A stretch of DNA of 64,000 bases, from contig NZ_JAYESJ010000001.1 of NCBI RefSeq assembly GCF_034720595.1, forward strand, positions 3,002,001-3,066,000. The letters are read 5' to 3'. The notes beneath the pieces were generated by a model that worked only from the letters and a program-made list of their open reading frames with translations, had not been told where the DNA came from and searched no databases. The position numbers and the translations under genes were made by a program. This DNA is from Rhizobium sp. CC-YZS058. GTDB lineage: Bacteria > Pseudomonadota > Alphaproteobacteria > Rhizobiales > Rhizobiaceae. Positions 56,742 to 62,123 of the stretch are shown here, in pieces. Within the stretch, counting starts at the first letter, position 1, and each line of letters opens with the position of its first letter.

Positions 56742-56939
56742 TCAGTGGTGACGGCGGCCGCGCTCGGCACTGTCGAGCTGGTCGAGCAGTTGCTCGAACC
56801 GGCCTTCGGTGCGCGGTGTCTCGCCGTTGAAATAGAGGTCCTTCAGGGTTCGCCCAATATGGCTGTTGTCCCCCGAGCCGTTTGCCGGACGTGACGAAGC
56901 CAACGCAGATTTCCATATATTGGAGTGTGATACGGTCAT
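56742..56939 (-). CDS. NepR-like anti-sigma factor (general stress response)
   Basis: 65 aa from ATG 56939; a longer start (57080) lies upstream of the predicted transcription start. The segment IGRTLKDLYFNGETPRTEGR then FEQLLDQLDSAE has the NepR hallmark RFxxLLxxLDxAE that contacts the EcfG sigma factor and is released when PhyR is phosphorylated. It has its own perfect EcfG promoter, as expected for autoregulation. No phyR or ecfG is adjacent, so it would be a second or orphan copy. The N-terminal half is divergent. Confidence 0.65.
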   Translation of the reverse strand: MTVSHSNIWKSALASSRPANGSGDNSHIGRTLKDLYFNGETPRTEGRFEQLLDQLDSAERGRRHH

Positions 56940-56975
56940 GTTCGTCGCTTTCGCAAGATGTCCAAGTGCTGCTTC

Positions 56976-57000
56976 AACGCCTCCTACAAGGTGAAGTTCC
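56976..57000 (-). promoter_or_regulatory. EcfG-type promoter of the NepR-like gene
   Basis: Minus strand GGAAC (57000-56996), 16 bases, CGTT (56979-56976): a perfect match. Predicted start of transcription about 56969, 30 bases before the ATG. Confidence 0.85.
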
Positions 57001-57097
57001 CATTCACCATGTGCGCAACCGTCCCAAAATGACCCGTTCTTGCGATTTATGGTGAATGCTTGGTTAATGCCTGAGCTCACAGGTCAAGGTCGAACGA

Positions 57098-57122
57098 GGA
57101 ACAAATTCGTGATCGGCGCGTT
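57098..57122 (+). promoter_or_regulatory. EcfG-type promoter of the DUF1328 gene
   Basis: GGAAC (57098-57102), 16 bases, CGTT (57119-57122): a perfect match. Predicted start about 57129, 25 bases before the ATG at 57154. Confidence 0.85.
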
Positions 57123-57153
57123 AAATGGCATCAGTCATCGAGAGGAGCCGATC

Positions 57154-57318
57154 ATGCTTTACTACGCACTTGTTTTCCTGGTTGTTGCAATCATTGCCGG
57201 CGTTCTTGGCTTCGGCGGCATCGCAGGCGCATCGGCCGGCATTGCACAAATTCTGTTCTTCCTGTTCCTGGCCTTCCTGGTCATTTCCCTGGTCGCCGGC
57301 CTGATGCGCCGGACCTGA
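57154..57318 (+). CDS. DUF1328 small membrane protein (YtjA-like)
   Basis: 54 aa from ATG 57154 (GAGAGGAG about 7 bases upstream). Two membrane helices, [20 protein letters not shown] and [20 protein letters not shown], the DUF1328 pattern. Members are highly induced by general stress in alphaproteobacteria; mechanism unknown. It has a perfect EcfG promoter and a strong terminator, forming a monocistronic stress unit. Confidence 0.9.
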
Positions 57319-57345
57319 GGAACAGCTTAAGATTGAGCCTTTCGA

Positions 57346-57375
57346 GGGGAGTGCCACGGCGCTCCCCTTTTTCTT
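57346..57375 (+). terminator. Intrinsic terminator after DUF1328
   Basis: GGGGAGTGC and GCGCTCCCC pair through one G-U wobble and are followed by TTTTTC and TTTTTG. Confidence 0.85.
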
Positions 57376-57541
57376 TTTGAGCCGAGGCAACCCGCCCCGG
57401 CCCGGCGCTTGCGGGGCGCCTGAGGCTTGGCTATTCAAGTTGGAAATCTTCGCGGTTGCACAACTCTTCCCGCGGCGCGCCAGCGCGCGGGGATGCGAGA
57501 CGAAGCGAGCGTGCCAGTCACCAAGCAAGGAGCGGGACGGA

Positions 57542-58795
57542 ATGAAGGCGGATGTGGTCGTTCTTGGAGCAGGGATCGTCGGACTATCGACCGCGATCCA
57601 TCTCGCGCGGCGCGGAAAGTCGGTCCTGCTGGTCGATCGCCGCGGCGTCGGTGAGGAAACCTCCTTCGGCAATGCCGGGCTCATCCAGCGCGAGGGCGTG
57701 GTGCCCTATGGCTTCCCGCATGATTTCGGCGCGCTGTTCCGCTATGCGCTCAACAACACGATCGACGCCCACTATCACGTCAAGGCCTTGCCGGGGCTCG
57801 TGCCCTTTCTCATCCGCTACTGGTGGAATTCCGGCTTCACCCAGCACCAGCGCATCGCGCGGCTCTATGCACCGCTGATCGAGAACTCGATCACCGAGCA
57901 TGACGACCTGATCAAGGCCTCGGGCGCCGACAATCTGATCCAGCGCGACGGCTGGATGAAGGTGTTCCGCACAGAAAAGGCGCGTGACGAGGCCTATCGC
58001 GAGGCCGAGCGGCTTTCCGCCGGCTTCGGCGTCCACCATCAAAAACTGTCCAGCAGCGAGATCAAGACGATCGAGCCCTCGATCCGCGCCGAGCTGGCCG
58101 GCGGCCTGCGCTGGAGCGACCCCTGGTCGATCCGCGACCCGCACAGCCTGAACAAGGCCTACCTCTCCTATTTCCAGTCGCTCGGCGGGCAGATCGTTGC
58201 CGGCGACGCAGCGACGCTGGAGCATGTTCTCGAAGGGCCCGGCTGGCGCGTCGCTTCGCCGGATGGACCGATCGAGGCCATGGAGGTGGTCGTGGCCCTC
58301 GGCCCATGGGCGGATACCGTCACGCGCAAGCTCGGCTACCGCTTCCCGCTCGCCGTCAAGCGCGGCTACCATATGCATTATGGATCGCAGGAGGGGGCGC
58401 AGCTCAACAACTGGGTTCTGGACGCCGAAAAGGGCTATTTCCTCGCCCCCATGCTGCGCGGCATCCGGTTGACGACCGGCGCGGAATTCGCAACGCGCGA
58501 TGCGCCGAAAACGCCGGTGCAGCTCGATCGTGCCGAGCGCGTCGCCCGCGAGTTCTATCCGCTGGCTGAGCGGCGCGATCCCGAGCCCTGGATGGGCGCC
58601 CGCCCCTGCACGCCGGACATGATGCCGATCATCGGCAAGGCGCCGCGGCACCAGGGCCTGTGGTTCGCCTTCGGCCATGCCCATCACGGCATGACGCTCG
58701 GTCCCGTGACCGGACGGGCACTGGCGGAACTGATGACCGGCGACCGCACGGTCGTCGATCTCGGCCCCTATCGTCCGGAGCGCTTCCTCGCCTGA
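57542..58795 (+). CDS. FAD-dependent oxidoreductase (D-amino-acid dehydrogenase-like, DadA/DAO family)
   Basis: 417 aa from ATG 57542 (AAGGAG 10 bases upstream). N-terminal FAD motif VVLGAGIVGLSTAIHLARRG with LLVDRRG; C-terminal GARPCTPDMMPIIGKAPRHQ and FGHAHHGMTLGPVTGRALAE, the DadA/DAO signature. It probably deaminates D-amino acids or related N-methyl compounds, passing electrons to the quinone pool. No alanine racemase gene adjoins. It stands alone; the next gene follows after 145 bases. Confidence 0.88.
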   Translation: MKADVVVLGAGIVGLSTAIHLARRGKSVLLVDRRGVGEETSFGNAGLIQREGVVPYGFPHDFGALFRYALNNTIDAHYHVKALPGLVPFLIRYWWNSGFTQHQRIARLYAPLIENSITEHDDLIKASGADNLIQRDGWMKVFRTEKARDEAYREAERLSAGFGVHHQKLSSSEIKTIEPSIRAELAGGLRWSDPWSIRDPHSLNKAYLSYFQSLGGQIVAGDAATLEHVLEGPGWRVASPDGPIEAMEVVVALGPWADTVTRKLGYRFPLAVKRGYHMHYGSQEGAQLNNWVLDAEKGYFLAPMLRGIRLTTGAEFATRDAPKTPVQLDRAERVAREFYPLAERRDPEPWMGARPCTPDMMPIIGKAPRHQGLWFAFGHAHHGMTLGPVTGRALAELMTGDRTVVDLGPYRPERFLA

Positions 58796-58867
58796 AGGCG
58801 CGCGGCGGGCGCACGGCAAACCTCGCCGCCGCTGTTCGATTCGAAAACTGTCAAGAAAACTTTGTAC

Positions 58868-58892
58868 GGAACGAACGGGGGGATGTGCCGTT
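58868..58892 (+). promoter_or_regulatory. EcfG-type promoter of the 67-aa protein gene
   Basis: GGAAC (58868-58872), 16 bases, CGTT (58889-58892): a perfect match. Predicted start about 58899, 42 bases before GTG 58941. Confidence 0.85.
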
Positions 58893-58940
58893 TCGAGCCA
58901 CGTCGGGTGCCGGTGATCGGCGCCTGCAGGAGTGGTTCTC

Positions 58941-59144
58941 GTGAAACGACAGATCATTGAAATTGCCGGCGAAGCCGTCGGCGCGCTGATGCCGGAGGGC
59001 GATGCATTCCGGTTCATGGCGGTCAAGTTCCACGTCTGGCCCTTCGATGGCGAGCGCTTTGCCAGCCATCATGACGCGTTGCGGGCCCTGACCGCGCATC
59101 TGAACGACAATTGTGCCGAAGCGGCGGAAGCCAAGGCCTCCTGA
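58941..59144 (+). CDS. Small stress-regulated hypothetical protein
   Basis: 67 aa from GTG 58941 with AGGAG 8 bases upstream. Soluble: KRQIIEIAGEAVGALMPEGD then AFRFMAVKFHVWPFDGERFA and a C-terminal Ala-rich helix. I do not recognise the family. A perfect EcfG promoter makes it a general-stress-response gene. Convergent with the TIGR02588-like gene. Confidence 0.7.
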   Translation: MKRQIIEIAGEAVGALMPEGDAFRFMAVKFHVWPFDGERFASHHDALRALTAHLNDNCAEAAEAKAS

Positions 59145-59157
59145 GCGTGAAGCCCCG

Positions 59158-59562
59158 TTACGGGTCTCGATATCCCGAGGCGCGCAGTTCCAGCTCATAG
59201 AGGGAGGGATCGTTGGCAAAGAGCAGCGCACCCTCCGCTCTCGACTGGGCAGGCACATAGTCGAACGTAACCTCCCGCTCTTCTACCGGCTCCCCGTCCT
59301 TCAGCAGGCGGCCGGTGACCGGCACGCCGGCGGCGGTCTGCTTGCCGCCGTTCACCACGATGAAGGACAGCTCGAACCCCTGCGCCGTGCTGCGGGTGGT
59401 GGTCAGCGCCACCGAAAGCTCGGCCGTCGCACCGCGCGCGGCGACACCATGATAGGCGATGACTGCAATCAGGCTCAGGACGAGAATCGTCGAGGCAGCC
59501 CCGGTCGCCCATTCGATCCAGTGCGGGTTGCGCGAGACGCGCTTGCTTTGCTTGCCGGCCAT
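59158..59562 (-). CDS. TIGR02588-like membrane protein
   Basis: 134 aa from ATG 59562 with GAGG 6 bases upstream. Sequence PHWIEWATGAASTILVLSLI then AVIAYHG gives one N-terminal helix; the rest is a periplasmic beta-rich domain (GFELSFIVVNGGKQTAAGVP, then REVTFDYVPAQSRAEGALLF). It appears to belong to TIGR02588, which is always paired with TIGR02587; here it follows that gene by 7 bases. Function unknown. Confidence 0.75.
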   Translation of the reverse strand: MAGKQSKRVSRNPHWIEWATGAASTILVLSLIAVIAYHGVAARGATAELSVALTTTRSTAQGFELSFIVVNGGKQTAAGVPVTGRLLKDGEPVEEREVTFDYVPAQSRAEGALLFANDPSLYELELRASGYRDP

Positions 59563-59569
59563 CAGCGCC

Positions 59570-60430
59570 TCACAGGATGAGCCGGGCGGCGGCGGCACCG
59601 ACCGCACCGGGAAAACCAAGAACGATCATAGACATCAGCACCGGCATGGACCCGGCATCGTCCAGCCGCCCGAAGCTCCAGAGTGAATAGAGGCTGATGA
59701 GGAGGGCGATCGCATAACCCGGCAGGGTGAACCGGATAAGGGCGTGCCACCAGGGCGTATCCGCCTCCAGCGACTGCCCGCCCTTGAAGGACACGGCATA
59801 GACGAAGCCATGCATGACGGCGATGGAGCAGAGGATGGTGAGAAGGGCATGCCACGGCGTCATGATGTAGGAGATCAGCACCATCTCCTCGGTCGGCGCC
59901 ATGTTGAGATTGAGGAACAGCGCGCCGACCGCCATCATGAACAGCTCGCTGCCATAGCTCATGCCGGGCTCGTCCTCCTCCGCCTCTTCCTCGCCGCCAC
60001 TGCCGAGCTGGCTGCGGCCGAGCAAGGCGCCGATGCCAGCCGGCACCGCCTGAACCGCGATCTTGCCAACGATGTCGTTCAGCGAGTCGCGCGCATCGAG
60101 AAGGCCGAACAGCGCCAGGATCAGGCCGCTGGCAACGATGCCGAGGGCGAAGGCGACCATCGCATCCCGCATCCCCTCGCGCCAGGTGAAGGTGCGCTCG
60201 AAACCGATGCCATGGGCAATGCCGACGAGAAGCGGGATGGCGAGCAGCATCAGCGCCAGAAGGCGCCAGCGGTCCATGGCATGGCCAAGATCCCACATTT
60301 CCATGGTCATCTGCATGGGGAGCGCGAAAAGCAGCGCGCCGGCCAGCCCGCGGCCAAGACCGACGAGGAATTCGCTGGCCTCGAACCCGTCGTCTCGCGC
60401 GTCATGTGCGCCCTGCGCCGTCTCGCTCAC
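59570..60430 (-). CDS. TIGR02587-like integral membrane protein
   Basis: 286 aa with about seven or eight hydrophobic helices, and an acidic insert GEEEAEEDEPG between helices. FALPMQMTMEMWDLGHAMDR and ALFLNLNMAPTEEMVLISYI are characteristic of TIGR02587 proteins. Function unknown; the conserved Met, Glu and His residues within helices hint at cofactor or metal binding (inference). It lies 105 bases after the BON-domain gene and may share its stress-regulated transcript. Confidence 0.75.
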   Translation of the reverse strand: MSETAQGAHDARDDGFEASEFLVGLGRGLAGALLFALPMQMTMEMWDLGHAMDRWRLLALMLLAIPLLVGIAHGIGFERTFTWREGMRDAMVAFALGIVASGLILALFGLLDARDSLNDIVGKIAVQAVPAGIGALLGRSQLGSGGEEEAEEDEPGMSYGSELFMMAVGALFLNLNMAPTEEMVLISYIMTPWHALLTILCSIAVMHGFVYAVSFKGGQSLEADTPWWHALIRFTLPGYAIALLISLYSLWSFGRLDDAGSMPVLMSMIVLGFPGAVGAAAARLIL

Positions 60431-60535
60431 CCTGGTCTCCTCTCGCCCGCCGCCGACCGACCGCCCGAAAGCGGAAAGGCCGCCGGCGTTTCTGCAACAC
60501 CAGCGGCCCCACTTCGCAAGTCAAAGCTTACGGCG

Positions 60536-61021
60536 TCAATCGTTCCAGTCGGTCGGAATGCCGGCATCCACAGCCTGGGTCGTCAGTCCGTTGCGAACGG
60601 CCGAGATACCAGCGGTTCTGTAGACCAGCTCCTCGACAGCGCGGCGGTCTTCCATGGTTTCGACGAAGCCGGACAGCTCGGCCACACCGCGACGGACCTT
60701 GATCTCGACACCGGAGGTTTCGATCTCGTGGTCTTCCAGCGCGTTGGCGATCGTATCCTCGATCGCGTCGTCATTGGAGTCGGACCCCGGATCGTCCGTC
60801 AGGATGCTCGGGCCGCCCTTGCCGAAATGGGCGCTTTCATCGCTCGGCTGAAAGCCGGGATTGCCGGTTTCATCGAACGATTCAGCGGTCTCGCCATAGC
60901 CGGCGTTCTCGATCTTCGTCTCCGGGCCGGAAACGCCGTCGGCATAGGGCCAGCCTTCGCCGATGTCGCGCTCCTCGTAATCGCGGTAGTCTTCTTCGCG
61001 GCGGGTTGTCTTCTCGATCAT
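60536..61021 (-). CDS. BON-domain protein
   Basis: 161 aa from ATG 61021 (AAGGA about 8 bases upstream). The N-terminal 75 residues are acidic and low in hydrophobics (DIGEGWPYADGVSGPETKI). The C-terminal BON domain reads AIEDTIANALEDHEIETSGV then RRGVAELSGFVETMEDRRAV and EELVYRTAGISAVRNGL. There is no signal peptide, so it is probably cytoplasmic. BON proteins are linked to envelope or osmotic stress. A degenerate EcfG-like promoter (61085-61109) lies upstream. Confidence 0.85.
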   Translation of the reverse strand: MIEKTTRREEDYRDYEERDIGEGWPYADGVSGPETKIENAGYGETAESFDETGNPGFQPSDESAHFGKGGPSILTDDPGSDSNDDAIEDTIANALEDHEIETSGVEIKVRRGVAELSGFVETMEDRRAVEELVYRTAGISAVRNGLTTQAVDAGIPTDWND

Positions 61022-61084
61022 GACGGGGGTCCTTCCCTCATTCCGTTCACCCGCCCGGTTCAGACCCGGGCGGCTCGGGAGAGA

Positions 61085-61109
61085 AACCTCTGAACCGCCC
61101 TTTTGTTCA
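61085..61109 (-). promoter_or_regulatory. Degenerate EcfG-like promoter of the BON gene
   Basis: Minus strand TGAAC (61109-61105), 16 bases, GGTT (61088-61085): seven of nine consensus positions. Placed 64 bases before the ATG. Weak on its own; its setting among perfect sites makes it worth listing. Confidence 0.35.
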
Positions 61110-61214
61110 ATTCGCATCGCCAGCACGCCGCGAGCCAACGCGACAGGTGACCAGAACGCAAAATGGCGAGGCCGGAGCCTCGCCACTGCGTGATCAGAGC
61201 TTCGTCTGGTCAGA

Positions 61215-61709
61215 TTAGTTCTGGGTAGCCGGAGCCGTACCGGTGGCAGGAGCAGCGCCCGTGGCCGGCGTTTCATTGGTACCGGCAGCCGGGGCAGCCG
61301 GGGCTGTCGACGGAGCGGTAGCGTCCGGAGCGCTCGGGGCCGTCGCATTCGGCGTCGCGGCGGGCGTCTGGGCGGCCGGGGTCGTGGTATCAGCGGCCGG
61401 CGGCGTAGCGTTTTGAGCGGCCGGTGCCGGCTGGGTGGCGGTGTCCGATCCGTTGTTCATTTCGGCCGGGAGCCAGACGAGCAGCGCCAGGGCGAGACCT
61501 GCCAGAAGGATGATCAGGATCGGCCAGCTGCTGCGGCGCGAGGCCGTGACCGGTGCGTTGATATCGACCGAGTTGTTGACGATCGGATCATTGACCGGGC
61601 GGGCCAGCGGATCAGCCGCGCGGGCCTCCTCACGGGCAGTCGCACTGTCGGCAGGCCAGGTGGTGGGATTGACGGGACGCTTGTCGTTCGGGTCGAAGCG
61701 CTGGTTCAT
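61215..61709 (-). CDS. Membrane-anchored Ala/Pro/Thr-rich protein
   Basis: 164 aa from ATG 61709; the in-frame ATG 61766 precedes the predicted transcription start and is excluded. Residues 1-60 are hydrophilic (NQRFDPNDKRPVNPTTWPAD), one helix follows (SSWPILIILLAGLALALLVW), and the last 75 residues are almost entirely Ala, Pro, Thr and Asn with a few acids, an extended linker-like periplasmic domain. A single-pass N-in topology is likely. Perfect EcfG promoter, therefore stress-induced. Function unknown. Confidence 0.75.
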   Translation of the reverse strand: MNQRFDPNDKRPVNPTTWPADSATAREEARAADPLARPVNDPIVNNSVDINAPVTASRRSSWPILIILLAGLALALLVWLPAEMNNGSDTATQPAPAAQNATPPAADTTTPAAQTPAATPNATAPSAPDATAPSTAPAAPAAGTNETPATGAAPATGTAPATQN

Positions 61710-61764
61710 GACGGGCTTCCTTTCGGTCTCTGTTGAGCCGGATCCTCCCGGCCTATGATCGTTC

Positions 61765-61789
61765 AACGCGAGGGTATCGCGAATGTTCC
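61765..61789 (-). promoter_or_regulatory. EcfG-type promoter of the Ala/Pro/Thr-rich protein gene
   Basis: Minus strand GGAAC (61789-61785), 16 bases, CGTT (61768-61765): a perfect match, about 55 bases before the ATG at 61709. Confidence 0.85.
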
Positions 61790-61796
61790 GCCGGGC

Positions 61797-62057
61797 TCAA
61801 TCCTGCTCGCGGGTGCCGGGCGTCGCTTCGCGCTGGTCGGCGTCCTCGAGATCGCTCGCGACGATGAAGGCATCGCCATGCTGGCGGGCTGCCTCGCGCC
61901 GGGCGGCGAGGTTCGCCATGTCATCGGGTTCGATCCCGGTTTCGTCCTCGCGGTCGCGCAACTGGCCGTCGCTTTCGATCGCTTCGGGTTCATGAGGCAG
62001 ATCGAGAGCGCGGTCCTGCCGATCGTCGCCTGCCGCGCCTGTCTTAGCACTGTCCAT
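61797..62057 (-). CDS. Small acidic stress-regulated protein
   Basis: 86 aa from ATG 62057 with AAGGAGA 8 bases upstream. The sequence is highly charged and hydrophilic (MDSAKTGAAGDDRQDRALDL then PHEPEAIESDGQLRDREDET), resembling intrinsically disordered stress proteins, with a helical middle (MANLAARREAARQHGDAFIV). Other frames over this stretch begin upstream of the EcfG promoter's predicted start and are rejected. Function unknown. Confidence 0.65.
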   Translation of the reverse strand: MDSAKTGAAGDDRQDRALDLPHEPEAIESDGQLRDREDETGIEPDDMANLAARREAARQHGDAFIVASDLEDADQREATPGTREQD

Positions 62058-62097
62058 TGAACGTCTCCTTCTGTCTTCAAGCGGAAAGTGCAGAGGC

Positions 62098-62123
62098 AAC
62101 GCCGCGCCGGGTGCGATGGTTCC
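62098..62123 (-). promoter_or_regulatory. EcfG-type promoter of the acidic protein gene
   Basis: Minus strand GGAAC (62123-62119), 17 bases, CGTT (62101-62098): a perfect match with the longer allowed spacer. Predicted start about 62091, 34 bases before the ATG. Confidence 0.8.

Follow-up and report, generated by a model that had tools for sequence, protein, structure and literature searches.

The DNA analysed here, a stretch of 64,000 nucleotides from Rhizobium sp. CC-YZS058 (C1:3002001-3066000; genome size 4.77 Mb, four contigs; hereafter the window), carries five EcfG-type promoter sites, each in front of a small gene. The comparisons presented below make it very probable that these sites belong to a satellite island serving the general stress response of alphaproteobacteria, which may include a feedback brake formed by a NepR-like protein, referred to here as NepR3. 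The strict motif was defined as GGAAC-N16/17-CGTT without mismatch, and the five sites, all of them present where a preliminary description had placed them, are its sole matches within the 64 kilobases (kb). The sites and their genes are as follows:

56976..57000, minus strand: EcfG-type promoter of the NepR-like gene (nepR3), GGAAC-N16-CGTT, strict motif match
56742..56939, minus strand: NepR-like gene (nepR3), ATG at 56939, below the Pfam NepR cut-off, profile-profile match to NepR2
57098..57122, plus strand: EcfG-type promoter of the DUF1328 gene, strict motif match, divergent from the nepR3 promoter
57154..57318, plus strand: DUF1328 membrane protein of 54 amino acids (aa), ATG at 57154, Pfam DUF1328 59.1 bits
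58868..58892, plus strand: EcfG-type promoter of the 67-aa gene, strict motif match
58941..59144, plus strand: 67-aa protein gene, GTG start, no known family
61765..61789, minus strand: EcfG-type promoter of the APT membrane protein gene, strict motif match
61215..61709, minus strand: Ala/Pro/Thr-rich (APT) protein of 164 aa with one conserved hydrophobic, membrane-like stretch, ATG at 61709
62098..62123, minus strand: EcfG-type promoter of the acidic protein gene, 17-base spacer, strict motif match
61797..62057, minus strand: acidic 86-aa protein, ATG at 62057

Between the -10 box and the start codon lie 36 (56939), 31 (57154), 48 (58941), 55 (61709) and 40 bases (62057), and these gaps of 31 to 55 bases fall within the 25 to 60 bases that had been claimed. 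Relatives of the 67-aa gene have an ATG or TTG start that aligns with its GTG. The number of sites expected by chance had been put below 0.1, and shuffling agreed with this estimate, yielding 0.79 strict sites per 64 kb and about 0.06 per 5.15 kb; when the full 64 kb was shuffled 100 times, one shuffle reached five strict sites.

A scan of the whole genome, proposed in the preliminary description as a check, identified 100 strict sites in 4.77 Mb versus 64 for the reversed motif, and 95 versus 54 on the main contig. Genome-wide, the excess over chance may amount to about one strict match in three, and about two thirds of them could be chance, since the reversed motif occurs 64 times. These counts would be compatible with the five motifs being a functionless chance cluster in GC-rich DNA. 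However, the density is not similar everywhere, and the island is the densest spot in the genome, the 15.3 kb from the first window site onwards holding nine strict sites. When sites were placed uniformly at random on the main contig 20,000 times, none of the trials put nine within 15.3 kb and 13 put five within 5.2 kb, and the densest stretches of the reversed motif hold two sites in 5.2 kb and three in 15.5 kb. Taken with the conservation described below (conserved boxes and drifting spacers in 85/85 nepR3 loci, no motif before four neighbour genes), this clustering renders a chance origin barely credible.

The island had been delimited as positions 56976..62123. The sites in that interval stand, but the island is larger, and it continues past the end of the window, with four further strict sites, to a second phyR-nepR pair. 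The features lying there, numbered on from the window coordinates, are:

67102, minus strand: strict site, 202 bases before a PRC-barrel gene (Pfam PRC 77.8 bits)
67242, plus strand: strict site, 38 bases before a DUF3309 gene (Pfam DUF3309 84.3 bits)
67865-68050, minus strand: nepR2 (Pfam NepR 50.2 bits)
68241-69038, plus strand: phyR2 (NCBIfam PhyR 378 bits, cut-off 240)
70328, minus strand: strict site, 117 bases before an AI-2E-family gene (Pfam AI-2E 112.3 bits)

The first three of the four sites can be assigned to genes, the PRC-barrel and AI-2E assignments being looser because the gaps (202 and 117 bases) are long. The ninth site of the cluster (72267, minus strand; L031:18267-18291) precedes no obvious gene start, and may be a chance match or belong to an unannotated transcript. 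The phyR2-nepR2 pair has no adjoining sigma gene, and no strict site of its own was found in the adjoining DNA scanned.

Conservation of the motif was assessed in relatives, comprising the 80 best named loci matched by PhyR2 and loci from a second genome set. The two sets overlap in part (identical promoter strings), so the 85 nepR3 loci represent fewer than 85 species, and the relatives share ancestry. The strict motif was present upstream of nepR3, as called by profile search, in 28/28 named and 52/52 second-set loci (80/80), and in 5/5 further loci retrieved by genome searches, giving 85/85 overall. The 80 loci contain 40 distinct promoter strings, with spacers of 16 or 17 bases. In an alignment of 21 nepR3 promoters, including that of the window, the nine box columns were identical in 21/21 sequences, whereas identity to the window was 39% in the spacer columns and 38% in the other upstream columns. 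The motif was also found upstream of DUF1328 (strict in 48/52 and relaxed in 52/52 named loci, some of these copies adjoining phyR1, outside the island; strict in 29/29 of the second set), the APT gene (strict in 24/24 named and 7/7 second-set loci), the 67-aa gene (strict in 10/20 and relaxed in 20/20 named relatives) and the acidic gene (strict in 2/2 named and 7/9 second-set loci). Box identity in the upstream alignments was 93% for the 67-aa gene (21 sequences) and 91% for the APT gene (25 sequences); in smaller alignments of 13 and 12 sequences, respectively, the boxes were out of register, with 42% and 57% identity. In shuffled upstream regions the frequency of the motif did not exceed 0.75% in its strict and 2.9% in its relaxed form.

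The neighbours that have no site in the window gave a different result. The strict motif was not found in the named loci before the BON (0/12), DUF2391 (0/9) and 134-aa (0/9) genes, nor before the gene for a flavin adenine dinucleotide (FAD)-dependent oxidoreductase in 28 named and 29 second-set loci (0/57; relaxed 1/29). Among the other genes, strict motifs preceded the PRC-barrel gene in 12/16 loci, the DUF3309 gene in 22/24, the AI-2E gene in 8/32 and phyR in 39/80. In this upstream scan one BON locus and one AI-2E locus lacked the full 250 bases; the accompanying protein alignments comprised 21/68 NepR rows, 14/25 APT rows and, in a third alignment, 20/21 rows (L082, with 3 residues, being left out). 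We consider that these data indicate an EcfG-regulon island, because the boxes are conserved before orthologues while the spacers drift and four neighbour genes lack the motif. Some observations nevertheless weigh against it: the -10 box is imperfect in half of the 67-aa orthologues, stray strict matches were recorded in control genes (glycine-zipper 2/37, nepR2 2/67), and kinship among the relatives means that the conservation counts are not independent.

The boxes and spacing of the island sites are the same as those reported for EcfG1 of R. etli, GGAAC-N16-CGTT (PMC3892343), from the same family, Rhizobiaceae. The genome of strain CC-YZS058 also contains a canonical locus (C1:980.9-982.1 kb), in which nepR1 is immediately followed by a sigma gene that is divergent from phyR1; this sigma gene belongs to NCBIfam NF009169 (378.8 bits, cut-off 321), a family named only "RNA polymerase sigma factor". 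From the locus setting we take it to be ecfG. Four strict sites lie at this locus (979-985 kb), and none was found on the nepR1-ecfG strand within the 3.2 kb of it examined. One strict site is located at phyR1 (L035:919 and 983-1743). The island sites could be genuine and yet be served by another extracytoplasmic function (ECF) sigma factor that shares the -35 box, given that the genome contains 21 PF08281 matches, including sigma-like frames 175-211 aa long, and that GGAAC is common to ECF promoters. However, both boxes fit the EcfG motif (PMC3892343), and the orthologues of phyR1, itself a gene of the EcfG system, are preceded by the same motif in 40/43 rows of the corresponding PhyR clade (see below), so a sigma factor other than EcfG appears highly improbable. 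The assignment to an EcfG-type general-stress-response island made in the preliminary description is therefore retained, on the basis of the R. etli EcfG1 motif, the canonical locus in the genome, the conservation of the sites and the site-less neighbours.

The product of nepR3 had been labelled NepR-like. This holds as far as homology is concerned, the profile-profile comparison with NepR2 (hhalign) giving a probability of 96.9 and an E-value of 1.4e-10 over 50 columns spanning both helices, but the protein is not a standard NepR: it scored 16.8 bits with the Pfam NepR model, the cut-off being 25.7, and 4/21 aligned NepR3 members matched that model at E 0.1. We regard NepR3 as a divergent paralogue because it falls below this cut-off. 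Its alignment keeps the helix positions I, L or M, Y, LL, L and E, and contains an N-terminal stretch with the consensus xxHIWKSA (invariant K, near-invariant W) that is absent from the NepR2 consensus. In a family survey that scored at most 15 candidates per genome, so that its counts are lower bounds, NepR3 was detected in at least 32/394 genomes, including the source genome, at E ≤7e-10; the remaining matches to E 1e-3 (next best 9.4e-7) mostly concerned the second part of the model and were canonical-NepR-like. NepR3 was also present in 33/33 genomes of one genus (g46) at E ≤3.3e-19. This genus appears Sinorhizobium-like from its matches to S. meliloti pSymB DNA (best 93%) and from promoter strings in common with named Sinorhizobium loci; none of the genomes searched was identified as S. 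meliloti itself.

Negative feedback is the likeliest role of NepR3, because the protein resembles an EcfG-controlled PhyR antagonist, NepR2 of Sphingomonas melonis Fr1, which is reported to bind PhyR and to lower the response (PMC6599016). By this analogy, we would give a feedback role about an even chance. Both proteins are NepR-like, and both genes have an EcfG-type promoter of their own (for nepR3, in the window and in 85/85 relatives). However, S. melonis NepR2 lies beside the canonical locus (genes 1444-1448) and NepR3 beside phyR2. META2_0735 of Methylobacterium extorquens, a NepR homologue from a different lineage, shares an EcfG-type promoter with NepR3 and is described as being under EcfG control, binding PhyR and lowering the response (PMC4814048).

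NepR3 might, alternatively, be a true anti-sigma factor, a third NepR that is induced by stress and binds EcfG directly instead of antagonising PhyR. Its homology to NepR2 over both helices, with several helix positions kept, would agree with such a role, and both RsiA1 and RsiA2 of S. meliloti are reported to bind the sigma factor (PMC4814048). However, the EPxPD linker of canonical NepR, in which E, P and P are invariant in 21 NepR2 rows, is lost in NepR3. Moreover, no sigma binding is reported to have been detected for the M. extorquens paralogues (PMC4814048), and the sigma-binding test of S. melonis NepR2 (PMC6599016) is not decisive but leans against it. Direct binding of EcfG by NepR3 thus seems unlikely.

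Replacement of L31 or F35 weakens S. melonis NepR2 (PMC6599016). The two corresponding positions of NepR3, which were matched purely by eye in L-[RK]-x-L-Y, are L/M followed by Y/F in the window and in 41/41 loci outside a Sinorhizobium group. The latter was delimited by choice as genus g46 plus a nine-row PhyR clade, the Sinorhizobium sp. A49 row (L081) falling outside. Of five loci added later, L202 keeps both positions. Several findings count against our reading of NepR3: at the second position, 39/39 loci of the Sinorhizobium group have H, E or Q (in 9 of these the first position, read by eye, is I, outside the pattern), three of the later loci, all from g46, have E, and locus L203, outside the group, has M; the canonical linker, as noted above, is missing; and the AlphaFold model of NepR3, with helices at 5-14, 26-36 and 47-63, is of low confidence (pLDDT, the predicted local distance difference test, 62). 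The PhyR-binding role may not hold in the Sinorhizobium group, because the second position is replaced there, and on these residues a PhyR-trapping brake would be likeliest in the source genome and less sure in Sinorhizobium.

The Tyr/Phe replacement throughout that group, together with the invariant K and near-invariant W of an N-terminal stretch that NepR2 does not share, could also mean that NepR3 no longer belongs to the PhyR-NepR switch and uses the xxHIWKSA motif to act on a different partner. However, the positions of helices 1 and 2 are still conserved in NepR3, and both PhyR-binding positions are kept in the 41 loci outside the group, and we find this departure doubtful. As for the feedback brake, we tentatively suggest a more specific form of it, in which NepR3 would found a NepR subfamily of Rhizobiaceae that is not produced until EcfG is active and then shuts the response off by trapping PhyR1 or PhyR2, xxHIWKSA adding a second partner; this form is possible rather than probable.

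The tree of 82 PhyR rows consisted of two clades (support 98/94). The first clade (39 rows), including the island-adjoining PhyR2, had an EcfG site in none, and the second (43 rows), including PhyR1 of the same genome, had one in 40. Among the 80 named loci, NepR3 occurred only beside first-clade PhyR (28/38 named rows), and it was not found within the DNA stretch examined in the ten first-clade rows from Shinella, Mycoplana and R. alarense. The closest relatives of PhyR2 among the matches listed were from a Rhizobiales isolate (84%), Rhizobium sp. PP-CC-3A-592 (82%), and Xaviernesmea oryzae and Rhizobium sp. Leaf453 (both 81%). The site-less PhyR2 clade agrees with the situation in S. meliloti, where RsiA2, termed an orphan anti-sigma gene (PMC6180224), is described as not regulated by RpoE2 (PMC3616915, PMC4814048). 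The phyR2-nepR2 pair thus resembles RsiB2-RsiA2, a second PhyR and NepR, nepR2 likewise lacking a site. The fit with a phyR2 outside EcfG control is imperfect, however, since the 5' region of S. meliloti SMc00794 (rsiB2/phyR2), although not its coding region, is reported to rise on rpoE2 overexpression (PMC3616915), a point against our interpretation; perhaps this rise comes from a neighbouring EcfG transcript. Unlike the S. meliloti pair, that of strain CC-YZS058 has an additional NepR-like gene with an EcfG site nearby, none being named by rsiB2 in the parts of the literature available. Another RsiA-like unannotated open reading frame is reported in S. meliloti opposite SMb21687, beside rpoE5 on pSymB (PMC6180224), a different place from that of nepR3 here.

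Compared with the EcfG (RpoE2) regulons of R. etli and S. meliloti, the targets here are packed in one island beside phyR2-nepR2, and no published description of such an island was found in the searches made of the open-access literature. Elsewhere too, DUF1328 members are placed under a general stress sigma factor, the Salmonella protein YtjA being reported among small RpoS-controlled genes (PMC5437024). The 67-aa protein had no Pfam family over the cut-off, and its AlphaFold model (pLDDT 88.6; three strands and two helices) had no clear match in the PDB. The acidic protein had no family match in the profile search and was present in 9/60 other genomes searched. Further features of the block are:

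57344..57369, plus strand: terminator-like hairpin with a T run, 3' of the DUF1328 gene (hairpin scan)
57542..58795, plus strand: gene for the FAD-dependent oxidoreductase, a conserved member of the block that lacks an EcfG site (Pfam DAO 229 bits)
60536..61021, minus strand: BON-domain protein, no EcfG site of its own (Pfam BON 44.0 bits)

The hairpin suggests a single-gene transcript for DUF1328; such hairpins number 5 in the region versus 4.3 expected, which is weak by itself. A large, PAS-rich, HisKA-like kinase (62280-65348, ending past the window) separates the acidic gene from the PhyR2 side; it has Pfam matches to PAS and to HisKA, the latter slightly under the cut-off, and none of its matches in the 80 named loci exceeded 33% identity. 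The nepR3-to-acidic-gene block (56742-62057) is inverted relative to phyR2 when compared with named relatives such as L056, and the promoters have travelled with their genes in this inversion. In six genomes of the same genus nepR3 is near the PRC-barrel gene; here it abuts L,D-transpeptidase (YkuD) and DUF2256 genes. Elsewhere in the genome, five strict sites cluster at C1:1906585-1912154, two of them forming one overlapping palindromic pair, and four at C1:505763-510397.

We suggest the following scheme. On stress, phosphorylated PhyR would bind NepR and so free EcfG, which would then transcribe at least five small island genes from their own promoters and probably also the PRC-barrel, DUF3309 and AI-2E-type genes next door; the second PhyR-NepR pair that the island adjoins has no EcfG site of its own. 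Once induced, NepR3 would most likely bind PhyR in competition with the true NepR, which would return to EcfG, a negative feedback brake. For the other four island products, envelope protection is our guess.

According to a 2016 report, negative feedbacks of the alphaproteobacterial stress response were then little known (PMC4814048), and S. melonis NepR2 was added as one in 2019 (PMC6599016). How this response is switched off is poorly known, and the conserved nepR3 with its EcfG promoter offers a case that can be tested in a model rhizobium. Four short island proteins gain a likely regulatory assignment and, if the proposed role of NepR3 is true, the best-studied rhizobial stress switch would have an overlooked brake.

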